A stretch of DNA of 64,000 bases from Sulfurihydrogenibium azorense Az-Fu1. Lineage in GTDB: Bacteria > Aquificota > Aquificia > Aquificales > Hydrogenothermaceae. Where the stretch lies: NCBI RefSeq assembly GCF_000021545.1, contig NC_012438.1, positions 124,001-188,000 of the forward strand, read 5' to 3'. The notes under the pieces are model-generated. The model was not told the DNA's origin. It searched no databases and was given only the letters and a program-made list of their open reading frames with translations. Below, piece after piece: positions 4,494-45,708 of this stretch (position 1 is its first letter; every line of letters begins with the position of its first letter). The position numbers and the translations under genes are program-made.

Positions 4494-4910
4494 ATGAAAA
4501 AATTTTTATTTGCATTAATTTTTGGGTCTATAGCTACCTCCTGTGTTGTAGTTGCAAGGCCTGGTGGTACAGCTGTTATAGTAGATACTCCCAATAAAAT
4601 TGTTGTAAATCCAAGAGTTATCTACGTACCGAGATATGATGTATATGTAATAGACGATGATAGAGTTGAGGTTTATAAATACAAAAATAAATGGTACTGG
4701 TATAGAGGTGGTGTTTGGTACGTAGCTGAAAGATACGAAGGTCCTTGGATAATCTTAAGAGGAGAACCACCAATTGCAATACCCCCAGGTCAGTTAAGAA
4801 AAATGCAAGTTCATGAAAGAAATGAGGAAAGAAAATTCTTTAAAGAGTTAGAAAAAGAGAGAAAACGCGAAGAAAAAGAGTGGAAAAAGCACAACAAATG
4901 GGATGATTAA
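4494..4910 (+). CDS. Putative small lipoprotein, YWY-rich
   Basis: A 138-residue protein with a KKFLFALIFGSIATSC leader whose Cys17 could be lipidated, although ATSC is only a fair lipobox. The middle is rich in Tyr and Trp (NKWYWYRGGVWYVAERYEGPW). The last 35 residues are strongly charged (Glu/Lys) and probably helical. Similar WY-containing envelope proteins are common and uncharacterised. The ATG at 4494 lies 4 bases after the aminotransferase stop, so it is probably translated in the same operon. No function can be assigned. Confidence 0.65.
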   Translation: MKKFLFALIFGSIATSCVVVARPGGTAVIVDTPNKIVVNPRVIYVPRYDVYVIDDDRVEVYKYKNKWYWYRGGVWYVAERYEGPWIILRGEPPIAIPPGQLRKMQVHERNEERKFFKELEKERKREEKEWKKHNKWDD

Positions 4911-28656: not shown

Positions 28657-28983
28657 ATGGCAGAGTTTAGACACGTTTTTGTATGTATGCAGAGAAAACC
28701 ACCGGGAATGCCTTCTTGTGGTGATAAAGGTTCAGATCAAATTTTTATGAAATTCCAAGAAGCTCTCATGACAAAAGGACTTTTTAACAAGATGGCTGTT
28801 ACTGCAACTGGATGTTTAGGTCCTTGTATGTTCGGTCCAAACGTCGTTGTTTACCCGGATGCTATATGGTACGGCAATGTAACCCCTGCAGATGTTGAAG
28901 AAATCATTCAAAAACACATAATAGAAGGTCAACCAGTAGAAAGACTAATAGTATCAAAAGGTAAACCACCCGGAATGTTCTAA
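28657..28983 (+). CDS. Thioredoxin-like 2Fe-2S ferredoxin
   Basis: 108 residues. Cys10, Cys21, Cys53 and Cys57 (VFVCMQ, PSCGD, TGCLGPC) match the ligand set of the thioredoxin-fold 2Fe-2S ferredoxins first studied in Aquifex and Clostridium. It is a small soluble electron carrier. A strong AGGAGG site precedes the ATG. A long terminator follows at once, so it is probably a high-level single-gene transcript. Confidence 0.93.
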   Translation: MAEFRHVFVCMQRKPPGMPSCGDKGSDQIFMKFQEALMTKGLFNKMAVTATGCLGPCMFGPNVVVYPDAIWYGNVTPADVEEIIQKHIIEGQPVERLIVSKGKPPGMF

Positions 28984-28989
28984 ATCTCT

Positions 28990-29018
28990 ATCAGGGCAGT
29001 TTTACTGCCCTGATTTTC
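28990..29018 (+). terminator. Rho-independent terminator of the ferredoxin gene
   Basis: ATCAGGGCAGT (28990-29000), loop TTT, ACTGCCCTGAT (29004-29014): a perfect 11-bp stem, then TTTT. It is the best intrinsic terminator in the window and shields the repeat region to its right from read-through. Confidence 0.9.
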
Positions 29019-29048: not shown

Positions 29049-29169
29049 CTGTCAATAAACTGTTTACAACCTGTTGATAGAATGTTTATAACCTGTTCAT
29101 AACTTGTTGATAAGTTGTCGACAACCTGTTGACAACCTGTTGATAACCTGTCGACAACTTGTTAATAAC
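29049..29169. repeat. Eleven tandem 11-bp units, consensus CTGTTGATAAC
   Basis: The units start at 29049, 29060, 29071, 29082, 29093, 29104, 29115, 29126, 29137, 29148 and 29159 with no insertions. TGT at positions 2-4 and A at positions 7 and 9 are present in all eleven. Units 7 and 10 carry TGTCGACA, making short palindromes. The reverse complement of the consensus is GTTATCAACAG. Confidence 0.9.
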
Positions 29170-29196: not shown

Positions 29197-29218
29197 GTTA
29201 TCAACAAGTTATCAACAA
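29197..29218. repeat. Two tandem inverted units GTTATCAACAA
   Basis: Two perfect adjacent 11-mers at 29197-29207 and 29208-29218, opposite in orientation to the long array and in the same 11-bp register. Confidence 0.9.
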
Positions 29219-29298: not shown

Positions 29299-29320
29299 GT
29301 TATCAACAAGTTATCAACAG
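29299..29320. repeat. Two further tandem inverted units GTTATCAACA(A/G)
   Basis: Adjacent 11-mers at 29299-29309 and 29310-29320, same orientation as the pair at 29197, inside AT-rich sequence. Confidence 0.9.
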
Positions 29321-29366: not shown

Positions 29367-29377
29367 GTTATCAACAA
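29367..29377. repeat. Single inverted unit GTTATCAACAA
   Basis: One perfect copy, the last before the A/T-only stretch that leads to the next gene. Confidence 0.85.
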
Positions 29378-29473
29378 TTTTCGCCATCTATTATTCTTAT
29401 TATTTATTATTTATTTAACTAAATATAAAATGATAAAATAATAAAAAGAAAAATAAATAAATAAGGTTAAAAA

Positions 29474-30049
29474 ATGCTTGAAAATTTAAAAAAGGAGCTA
29501 AGTAATTTAAAAGAAAAAGTTAATATAAGGTACAATACATTTGAAGAAGATGATTTTGAGAAATTTTTAAAAGAGATTTCTCAAGAAAACAGTTCTATAA
29601 AATTACAAAAAGATACTTTTTTAGGTGAGAAACCTATATTTTTAATTGAAAAAGATAAAATATCTATCAAATTTTTGGGAAAAGTTTCAGGTGGAGAAGT
29701 TAAATCGTTTTTAGACAGCATAAAAATAGTAGCAAATAATGAGTATCATATATCAAGTAGAATTTTAGAGTTTGCTCAGGAGATAGATAAACCTGTAGAT
29801 ATTAAAGTTTTTACTACAAACTCTTGTGGATGGTGTCATCCTGCCATTTTAAAAGCTGTAAGTTTTTCTGTCGTTAATCCAAATATCAAAGTTAGTATAA
29901 TAGATTGTTATTCTTTTCCTGAATTGGCTATGAAGTATAATGTATCGGCTGTTCCAAAAATAGTTATAAACGATAAGGTAGAGTTTGTTGGTGCTAGAGA
30001 TGACAATGAGTTTTTTGGATATATAGTCAAAGCTTTAGGAGAAGTGTGA
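29474..30049 (+). CDS. Protein disulfide oxidoreductase-like protein (two thioredoxin folds)
   Basis: 191 residues. The C-terminal half is a thioredoxin/glutaredoxin fold with the redox pair CGWC at 118-121 and the cis-proline segment SAVPKIVIN. The N-terminal half (residues 1 to about 100) looks like a second fold without cysteines. This is the layout of thermophilic PDO-type or glutaredoxin-like proteins. It may act in protein disulfide formation or as a thioredoxin-reductase partner. dxr follows after 3 bases. It is the first gene after the repeat region. Confidence 0.75.
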   Translation: MLENLKKELSNLKEKVNIRYNTFEEDDFEKFLKEISQENSSIKLQKDTFLGEKPIFLIEKDKISIKFLGKVSGGEVKSFLDSIKIVANNEYHISSRILEFAQEIDKPVDIKVFTTNSCGWCHPAILKAVSFSVVNPNIKVSIIDCYSFPELAMKYNVSAVPKIVINDKVEFVGARDDNEFFGYIVKALGEV

Positions 30050-42944: not shown

Positions 42945-45708
42945 AGGCTTCTATAATATCACCAACTTTTATATCATTATAATCCTTTAAAGTTAAGCCA
43001 CACTCAAATCCTTTTTGAACCTCTTTAACATCTTCTTTGAATCTTTTTAGAGAGGCTATTTCTCCATCGTATATAACTACTCCGTTTCTTACTAGCCTTG
43101 CTTTTGCGTTTCTTCTTATAACTCCTTCTGTTACATAACATCCAGCTATTGTACCTATAGACTTTGCCTTGAATGTAGCCCTTACTTCAGCTGTTCCAAG
43201 TAATACTTCCCTAAAGGTTGGTTTTAACATTCCTTTCATTGCTTTTTCAAGGTCTTCAATAGCTTGGTATATAATGTTATAAAGTCTTATGTCTACATTT
43301 TCTTGCTCTGCTGCTTTCCTTGCTGCTGCATCTGGTCTTACATTAAATCCTATGATGATAGCGTTTGAAGCAGCTGCAAGCATAACATCACTTTCTGTTA
43401 TACCACCTACAGCTGCATGGATTATATTTATCTTTACTTCTTCAAACTTTTCAGATAAATCTTCAATAGATTTCTTTAAAGCTTCTAAAGAACCTTGAAC
43501 ATCAGCTTTTATAATTATGTTTATCTCTTTTGCCTCACCTAAATTTTCAAGGCTAATTCTGGTTTTCTTAGCTAATAACTCTTCCTCTCTTCTTTGTTTT
43601 CTTACTTCCGCTAACTGTTTTGCCTCTCTTTCTGTTGCTTTTGCTATAAATTTATCTCCAGCTTGGGGAACCTCATCAAAACCCAGTACCTCAACAGGTG
43701 TTCCCGGTTTTGCCTCTTTTAATCTTTCTCCTCTTTCATTGAATAAAGCTTTAACTTTTCCCCACGTATATCCTGCTACAAAGTAATCTCCAACGTGTAG
43801 GGTTCCATCTTCTATTAAAACTGTAGCAACTGGTCCTTTTTTAGGATCTAACTTTGATTCTATAACTGTTCCAACAGCAAGTTTATTAGGGTTGGCTTTA
43901 AGTTCAAGCATTTCTGCTACTAAAAGTATCATTTCAAGAAGCTCTTCAACGTTTTTACCTGTTTTTGCTGAGATATCTACAAATATCGTATCTCCACCCC
44001 ACTCTTCTGGTATAAGTCCGTACTGGGTTAGTTCTTGCCTTACTCTCATTGGATCTGCACCGGGTTTGTCTATCTTGTTTACAGCTACTATTATAGGAAC
44101 TTTTGCGTTTTTAGCGTGGTTTATTGCTTCTACAGTTTGAGGTTTTACTCCATCATCTGCAGCTACTACAAGTACAGCTATATCTGCTACTTTTGAACCT
44201 CTCGCTCTTAAGGTTGTAAATGCTTCGTGTCCTGGTGTATCTAAGAAAGTTATCTCTTTTCCATTTGGAAGTTTTATTTTGTAAGCACCTATATGCTGTG
44301 TTATACCACCGTGTTCTCTTGCTGCTACATCAGTTTTTCTAATAGTATCAAGTAACGTTGTTTTTCCATGGTCAACGTGTCCCATTACAGTTACGACTGG
44401 TGGTCTTTCTTCTAACTGTCCTATTTCTTCTTCTCTAACCTCTACCTCTTCTTTTATTTCTTCTTCAGGCTCTTCACCTTCTACTTTCAACTCTGCTAAG
44501 AATCCGTGTTTTTCTGCTATTTCTAATGCAATTTTAGGGTCTATAGTCTGGTTTACGGTTGCAAGTATTTTCTTTTGTAATAAGTCCATGAGTATCTGAT
44601 TAACGGGTATATCTAAAAGGTCTGCTAACTCTCTTACGGTTATAACTTCTGGTATTTGAATGATTTTAATCTCTTCTTCTTTAGATTCTTCAACTTCTCT
44701 TTTCTTTTCTTCTTTTTTAGGTTTTTTCTTCTTAGGATGCCCTTCCATAAGTTTTCTGAGAGCTTCCATCTCTTCCTTTTCTTCTTTAGCTATACGAGCA
44801 ATCCTTTCTTCTTTTGTCTCTTTTTTCTCTGGTTTTTTCTCTTCTTTTATAGATTCGGGAGTAAAGGCTAAAGTTGGTCTTTCCTCAGGTTTTCTTAAAG
44901 GTTTTTCTTCTTTCCTTTCGAATTCTTGTGCTTTTACTGGTTGCTTTTCGTCTTTTCTTTCGAATTTTTCCTTTCTTTCAAACTTTTCTTTCCTTTCAAA
45001 AGGCTTTTTCTCTTCTTTTTTCTCAAATCTTTCTCTTTTTTCAAAAGGTTTTCTTTCCTCTCTCTTTTCAAATTTTTCCTTTTTTTCAAACCTTTCTCTT
45101 TTCTCAAAAGGTTTTTTCTCTTCTCTTCTATAAACTTTTTTTCTCTCTTCCTCAGGTACTACACCTTCTATAACTTCTGGCTGTTTTGGGAGAGATTCTA
45201 CTTTTTTTTCTTTTATTTCCTCTTTTGGCTTTTCTTCAACTTTTTCTTCTACTACTTCAGGCTGCTGTTTAATTTTCTCTTCTTCAAGTTTCTTTTGTTC
45301 TTCTAATTTTCTTCTTTTTTCCTCTTCTTGTCTTCTCAATTCTTCTTCTATTTTCCTTTTTTCTTCTTTCACTTTTTCTTCTACATTCTTAGCTAATTCA
45401 AAAGGAATTATAGAAAGATTAGAGACTTCTTTTGTATAACCTAACTCTCTAAGTTTTTGCTCTAATTCTGATAACGTAATACCTAATTTATGGTACAGGT
45501 CAAAAGCTTTTATTCCTTCTCCTTCCTTTTTTTCTTTTTTCTCTACGGTTTCTTCTTTCTGTGTAAATCTGTCTTTAATAACGTCAATAACGTCTTTATC
45601 TACTTTATCAGTTATCTTTTTTATGTTTAAACCAAACTCCTCATTTAAAATTTTCTTTAGTTCTTGAGGGTCTATATTTAACTGGATAGCTAAATCTTTT
45701 ACTTTCAA
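42916..45708 (-). CDS. infB: Translation initiation factor IF-2
   Basis: 930 residues. An IF2 N-domain (residues 1-50), a second helical N-domain near 65-115, and a very charged linker (about 115-340) precede a third N-domain near 350-400. The GTPase core starts with GHVDHGKT at 443-450, then DTPGHEAF and [10 protein letters not shown]. Residues 199-253 consist of repeats of a [12 protein letters not shown]-like unit. IF-2 brings fMet-tRNA to the 30S subunit. It overlaps queE downstream and abuts ylxQ. Confidence 0.95.

Follow-up and report, generated by a model that had tools for sequence, protein, structure and literature searches.

Bacterial origins of replication (oriC) are marked by clusters of DnaA boxes, with TTATNCACA as the canonical box. 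In E. coli, oriC carries two oppositely oriented arrays of same-direction boxes, most of them weak sites, with the boxes of a group 2-4 bp apart and an AT-rich unwinding element beside one group (PMC5742627, PMC10316083). In the basal unwinding system (BUS) of the B. subtilis type, a tandem pair of TTATCCACA-like boxes is followed by a spacer, with a published length peak of 10-13 bp, and by DnaA-trios (PMC6669920, PMC8287927, PMC10721633). Some lineages use a box consensus of their own, including the TTATTCACN-type box of Epsilonproteobacteria (PMC5043019), TT(T/A)TCAACA in mollicutes (PMC3322544) and a 12-mer in T. maritima (PMC10316083). On the protein side, D433 of E. coli DnaA is described as a base-contacting residue that is highly conserved among bacteria (PMC8235120, PMC5043019).

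Here, we analyzed a 64,000-nt stretch (hereafter the window) of the chromosome of the hot-spring bacterium Sulfurihydrogenibium azorense Az-Fu1 (Hydrogenothermaceae). The original prediction had noted eleven tandem 11-bp units whose core lies one base from a DnaA box, and had inferred an array for DnaA or a similar initiator. We find that the array is real, that it is one arm of an oriC-like region (29049-~29440) which is very probably the chromosomal origin, and that nearly all of its boxes carry a one-base change. This change goes with a substitution in the recognition helix of DnaA, an association that recurs in several unrelated bacterial groups.

A phased box array within an oriC-like region

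The array consists of consecutive 11-mers starting at 29049, 29060 and so on to 29159 without insertion, with TGT (unit positions 2-4) and A at positions 7 and 9 invariant. Read on the minus strand, every unit is within two mismatches of TTATCAACA, which differs from TTATCCACA at one base (position 6, C to A). The longest 11-bp-phased run in the window is 11 units, while in 60 dinucleotide-preserving shuffles the longest is 2 (≤2 mismatches) or 4 (≤3 mismatches), and no other period from 9 to 15 gives a run above 4. TRF also reports the repeat (29055-29169, period 11, 10.5 copies). Elsewhere in the window, positions 44954-45383 contain dense overlapping tandem repeats with periods 18, 21, 25, 45 and 63, pyrimidine-rich on the plus strand. 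Most of these periods are multiples of three, so this is possibly a low-complexity coding region on the minus strand.

Two points extend the original prediction. Only 2 of the 11 units are exact TTATCAACA, and the cluster goes on beyond the array with five perfect TTATCAACA boxes on the plus strand (Table 1). No TTATCCACA occurs in the cluster: base 6 is A in 8 and G in 3 of the TT[ATG]TCNACA sites counted, and T, A or G in the other array units. In the 1,640,877-base genome, GTTATCAACA occurs 14 times, 6 of them here, and TTATCMACA occurs 83 times, 7 of them within 271 bp here, with no second cluster. The last forward box is followed by a spacer whose length falls within the published BUS peak, and then by a DnaA-trio-like element with five of six trio triplets. 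Nine of 5000 shuffles do as well, and the element aligns in three other species of the genus.

Table 1. Features of the oriC-like region and its flanks (window coordinates)
Position	Strand	Feature	Detail
28657..28983	+	Flanking gene, thioredoxin-like [2Fe-2S] ferredoxin	PF01257 just over its cut-off; NCBIfam 2Fe-2S ferredoxin models below cut-off
28990..29014	+	Probable intrinsic terminator hairpin	ATCAGGGCAG-TTTTA-CTGCCCTGAT, then T-rich; separates the ferredoxin gene from the origin
29049..29169	-	Array of eleven DnaA-box-like sites in 11-bp register	Consensus GTTATCAACAG
29198..29217	+	Pair of TTATCAACA boxes, 11-bp spacing	Boxes at 29198 and 29209
29300..29319	+	Second pair of TTATCAACA boxes, 11-bp spacing	Boxes at 29300 and 29311
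29368..29376	+	Last (unwinding-proximal) TTATCAACA box	
29377..29387	+	11-nt spacer	ATTTTCGCCAT
29388..29405	-	DnaA-trio-like element	Plus strand CTATTATTCTTATTATTT; minus strand 3'-GAT AAT AAG AAT AAT AAA-5'
29406..29470	.	AT-rich continuation	Likely part of the DNA unwinding element (inferred)
29474..30049	+	Flanking gene, thioredoxin-fold / protein disulfide oxidoreductase-like	Conserved neighbor of the origin in the genus

We then asked whether this organization is conserved in relatives. Three other species of the genus (genomes G001, G003 and G006) have the same layout with TTATCAACA boxes upstream of the same thioredoxin-fold gene. In G003, the assembly breaks inside the cluster, and the far side (L025:1-200, contig G003:C104) carries a different gene from the ferredoxin and at least six further boxes, so the origin region is longer there and its left neighbor differs. 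Other Hydrogenothermaceae have box clusters made of canonical TTATCCACA, which in genomes G002, G004, G007, G012 and G017 lie upstream of the same gene (about 1.3 kb upstream in G007) and in others lie elsewhere. G002 shows five boxes in 11-bp register in the same reverse orientation relative to the gene. So the layout is shared while base 6 differs. A match in genome G015 had no box cluster around it and was taken as chance. Altogether, the presence of the array in close relatives in the same gene context and the rarity of the motif genome-wide, with one sharp peak here, support the original inference of a DnaA array, although DnaA binding itself remains inferred.

Box base 6 and DnaA residue 433

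We next examined the cognate initiator. One DnaA domain-IV match was found per genome, and in this genome (G000) it lies in a full DnaA encoded 544 kb away (G000:C1:697392). Aligned to E. coli DnaA (1J1V, with its sequence taken to start at residue 374), this protein has Asn at D433, Ser at T435 and Lys at R399. All four species with A at box position 6 (A6) have Asn433, while every other Hydrogenothermaceae DnaA read has Asp, except for His in genome G014, where the few boxes found are mostly C6. R399K and T435S also changed in the four A6 Sulfurihydrogenibium-like species, so Asn433 is not an isolated change there. T435S was nevertheless rejected as the determinant, because genome G008 has DHST with C6 boxes and Asn Poribacteria have NHTT.

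To look beyond this family, we scanned genome contigs for TTATCAACA-NN-TTATCAACA and obtained 119 loci, with DnaA found in 40 of 43 of these genomes looked at. Many of these pairs are chance or dispersed repeats, as in the Kiritimatiellae MAG RGIG7486, where the pair occurs at least six times (loci L185, L187, L192, L194, L202 and L203) and may be part of a dispersed repeat. Asn appeared with A6-dominated clusters in five Poribacteria, one Anaerolineae and one Lentisphaeria, and Ser in CSMAG_1513 (A6). Genomes with mixed A6/C6 clusters have Asp (one Bdellovibrionales has His). Chlorobiaceae and a small proteobacterial MAG have Asp with A6-only clusters, although it was not established that these are their origins. 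In Chlorobiaceae, loci L278:4640-4800 and L244:5850-6000 share a conserved hairpin made of TTATCAACA pairs with further boxes about 65-121 bp upstream, a possible origin or DnaA-regulated site. In the 0.8-Mb proteobacterial MAG RUG14087, which has an Asp433 DnaA, four TTATCAACA boxes in 11-bp register face four more in an inverted repeat (L258:6191-6300), forming a palindromic origin-like element. A Clostridium MAG (L168) that looked like an Asp/A6 exception also has a C6 group at 4601-4637 on the other side of dnaA. As this set is enriched for A6 by design, it was left out of the formal test.

We further investigated the association in genomes not chosen by box. DnaA genes were read from 59 Poribacteria genomes, four of which (G041, G042, G043 and G062) were also in the selected set. 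The origin-like cluster usually lies beside dnaA in these genomes, so that one stretch gives both. Of 23 Asp genomes, none is A6-dominated. Of the 30 Asn genomes, most favor A6, but G136, G141, G145, G155, G156 and G164 do not, and some have few recognizable boxes; about seven Asn genomes in the phylum are not A6-dominated. Nine Poribacteria (G114, G118, G121, G129, G141, G142, G143, G148 and G167) have a second match to the DnaA C-terminal domain, in most cases in an open frame of about 385-440 residues, a second DnaA-like protein. On a tree of DnaA without domain IV, a clade with Asp and C6 sits inside the Asn/A6 Poribacteria, and one Asn/A6 genome (G062) sits inside that clade, its inner placement weakly resolved, suggesting apparent reversals. 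Over 63 unselected Asp/Asn genomes (Poribacteria plus others), Asn goes with 186 A6 and 102 C6 boxes and Asp with 16 and 293, and Pagel's test supports correlated change (LR 25.4, 4 d.f., p = 4e-5). Of five independent residue contrasts, the box moves the same way in 4.2 on average and never the other way, although with so few contrasts the sign test alone is not significant (median p = 0.125).

In Anaerolineae relatives of G044 (loci L325-L352), the residue equivalent to D433 is hypervariable (D, S, T, N, A, R, K or H), unlike the near-fixed Asp reported for bacteria. Origins found with patterns blind to base 6 show Asn with A6 (genome G108, 12 boxes), Ala with T6 (G096, 9 boxes), Ser with G6 (G085, 8 boxes) and Asp with C6 or mixed C6/A6. 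Several Chloroflexota with Ser, Arg or Lys instead carry TTATCCCAA/TATCCCAAA repeats near dnaA (L380:8065-8302, L382:798-973, L384:8234-8471, L391:7581-7789 and L389:5097-5275), probably a further divergent DnaA box with bases 7 and 8 changed. Residue 433 is thus not the whole code.

Interpretation and alternative readings

We consider it very probable that this region is the chromosomal origin, where DnaA would bind the forward TTATCAACA boxes and be loaded from the last box onto the trios to open the duplex. The 11-unit array, with one box per about one helical turn (9 bp + 2 bp), would seed a second, oppositely pointing head-to-tail DnaA filament. In this view, the boxes have changed from ancestral TTATCCACA to TTATCAACA and the recognition helix of the cognate DnaA has changed with them. 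While the anatomy, its uniqueness, its conservation and the co-occurrence of the changes were established by computation, binding, initiation at this site, filament formation and the reading of base 6 by residue 433 are inferred. PMC8235120 assigns the D433 contact to base 7, next to base 6. A chemical reading that fits most cases, itself inferred, is that Asp accepts a hydrogen bond from the major-groove amino group of C or A, Asn pairs best with A, and Ala packs on the thymine methyl. The tolerance of Asp for A6 and of Asn for C6 would let box and protein change stepwise without losing the origin. It is somewhat more likely than not that residue 433 acts as a specificity dial for base 6 across bacteria (Asp: C, tolerating A; Asn: A, tolerating C; Ala: T; Ser: G in one case), in which case bacteria would have repeatedly re-coded most boxes of their origin together with the initiator, yielding natural initiator-origin pairs that may not cross-recognize.

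It remains possible, but unlikely, that the locus is oriC and the box change is neutral drift, with DnaA tolerating A or C at base 6 and Asn433 a coincidence. Asp DnaAs do co-occur with A6 boxes in Bacillota, Chlorobiaceae and others, some Asn genomes keep C6, and the paired test lacks significance. However, the Asn/A6 association appears in Aquificota, Poribacteria, Anaerolineae and a Lentisphaeria MAG, and Pagel's test on unselected genomes, the apparent Asn-to-Asp-to-Asn reversals in Poribacteria with the box following, and the Ala/T6 and Ser/G6 cases all speak against coincidence. A DnaA-titration or regulatory site (datA/DARS-like), with the true origin elsewhere, is very unlikely. In its favor, phased DnaA boxes also occur at datA (PMC5742627), there is no dnaA or dnaN neighbor (the distance to dnaA is not unusual, but gives no support to an origin here), and cumulative GC skew on 40 sampled 20-kb stretches shows no inflection here, although it is uninformative (permutation p = 0.24 for any signal at all). 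Against this reading, the genome has no other box cluster, a trio/AT-rich element follows the last box, and the position is conserved in the genus. Tandem direct repeats phased with the helix also resemble iterons of an integrated plasmid or mobile element bound by a Rep protein. This possibility seems remote, as no replication-protein gene was found among the four neighbors examined (ferredoxin, thioredoxin-fold, dxr and glycosyltransferase), the position is conserved in the genus, the element in relatives is made of canonical DnaA boxes, and Rfam gave no match.

Comparison with described origins

An oriC here is expected, and TTATCAACA-type boxes are already described for mollicutes (PMC3322544), with one listed in Cyanothece (PMC4674748). 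What appears undescribed is the recurrent link between base 6 and residue 433: literature searches found no paper tying the two, nothing relevant on DnaA/box co-evolution and no paper pairing Sulfurihydrogenibium with oriC, although most subscription papers fell outside these searches and priority is not certain. DnaA and its box are treated as nearly universal, and origin predictors fall back on TTATCCACA unless a divergent box is on file (PMC8287927). A recurrent, apparently reversible change tied to one recognition-helix residue gives a testable rule for predicting origins in uncultured lineages, a case of initiator-origin co-evolution across about a dozen sites at once, and candidate orthogonal initiator/origin pairs for synthetic replicons.

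Like E. coli oriC, the locus has two groups of same-direction boxes pointing opposite ways, most sites being weak, with an AT-rich unwinding element beside one group. It differs in having 11 units in strict 2-bp spacing, A instead of C at base 6, metabolic genes as neighbors and a recognizable trio element. It shares with the B. subtilis-type system a forward box, an 11-nt spacer and 3'-GAT-led trio repeats, but its last box is a single TTATCAACA rather than a tandem pair of TTATCCACA-like boxes. As in Epsilonproteobacteria, mollicutes and T. maritima, the box consensus has changed in a lineage-specific manner at an otherwise ordinary origin, but here the base-6 change is matched to the highly conserved residue D433, and the pair recurs in separate phyla.
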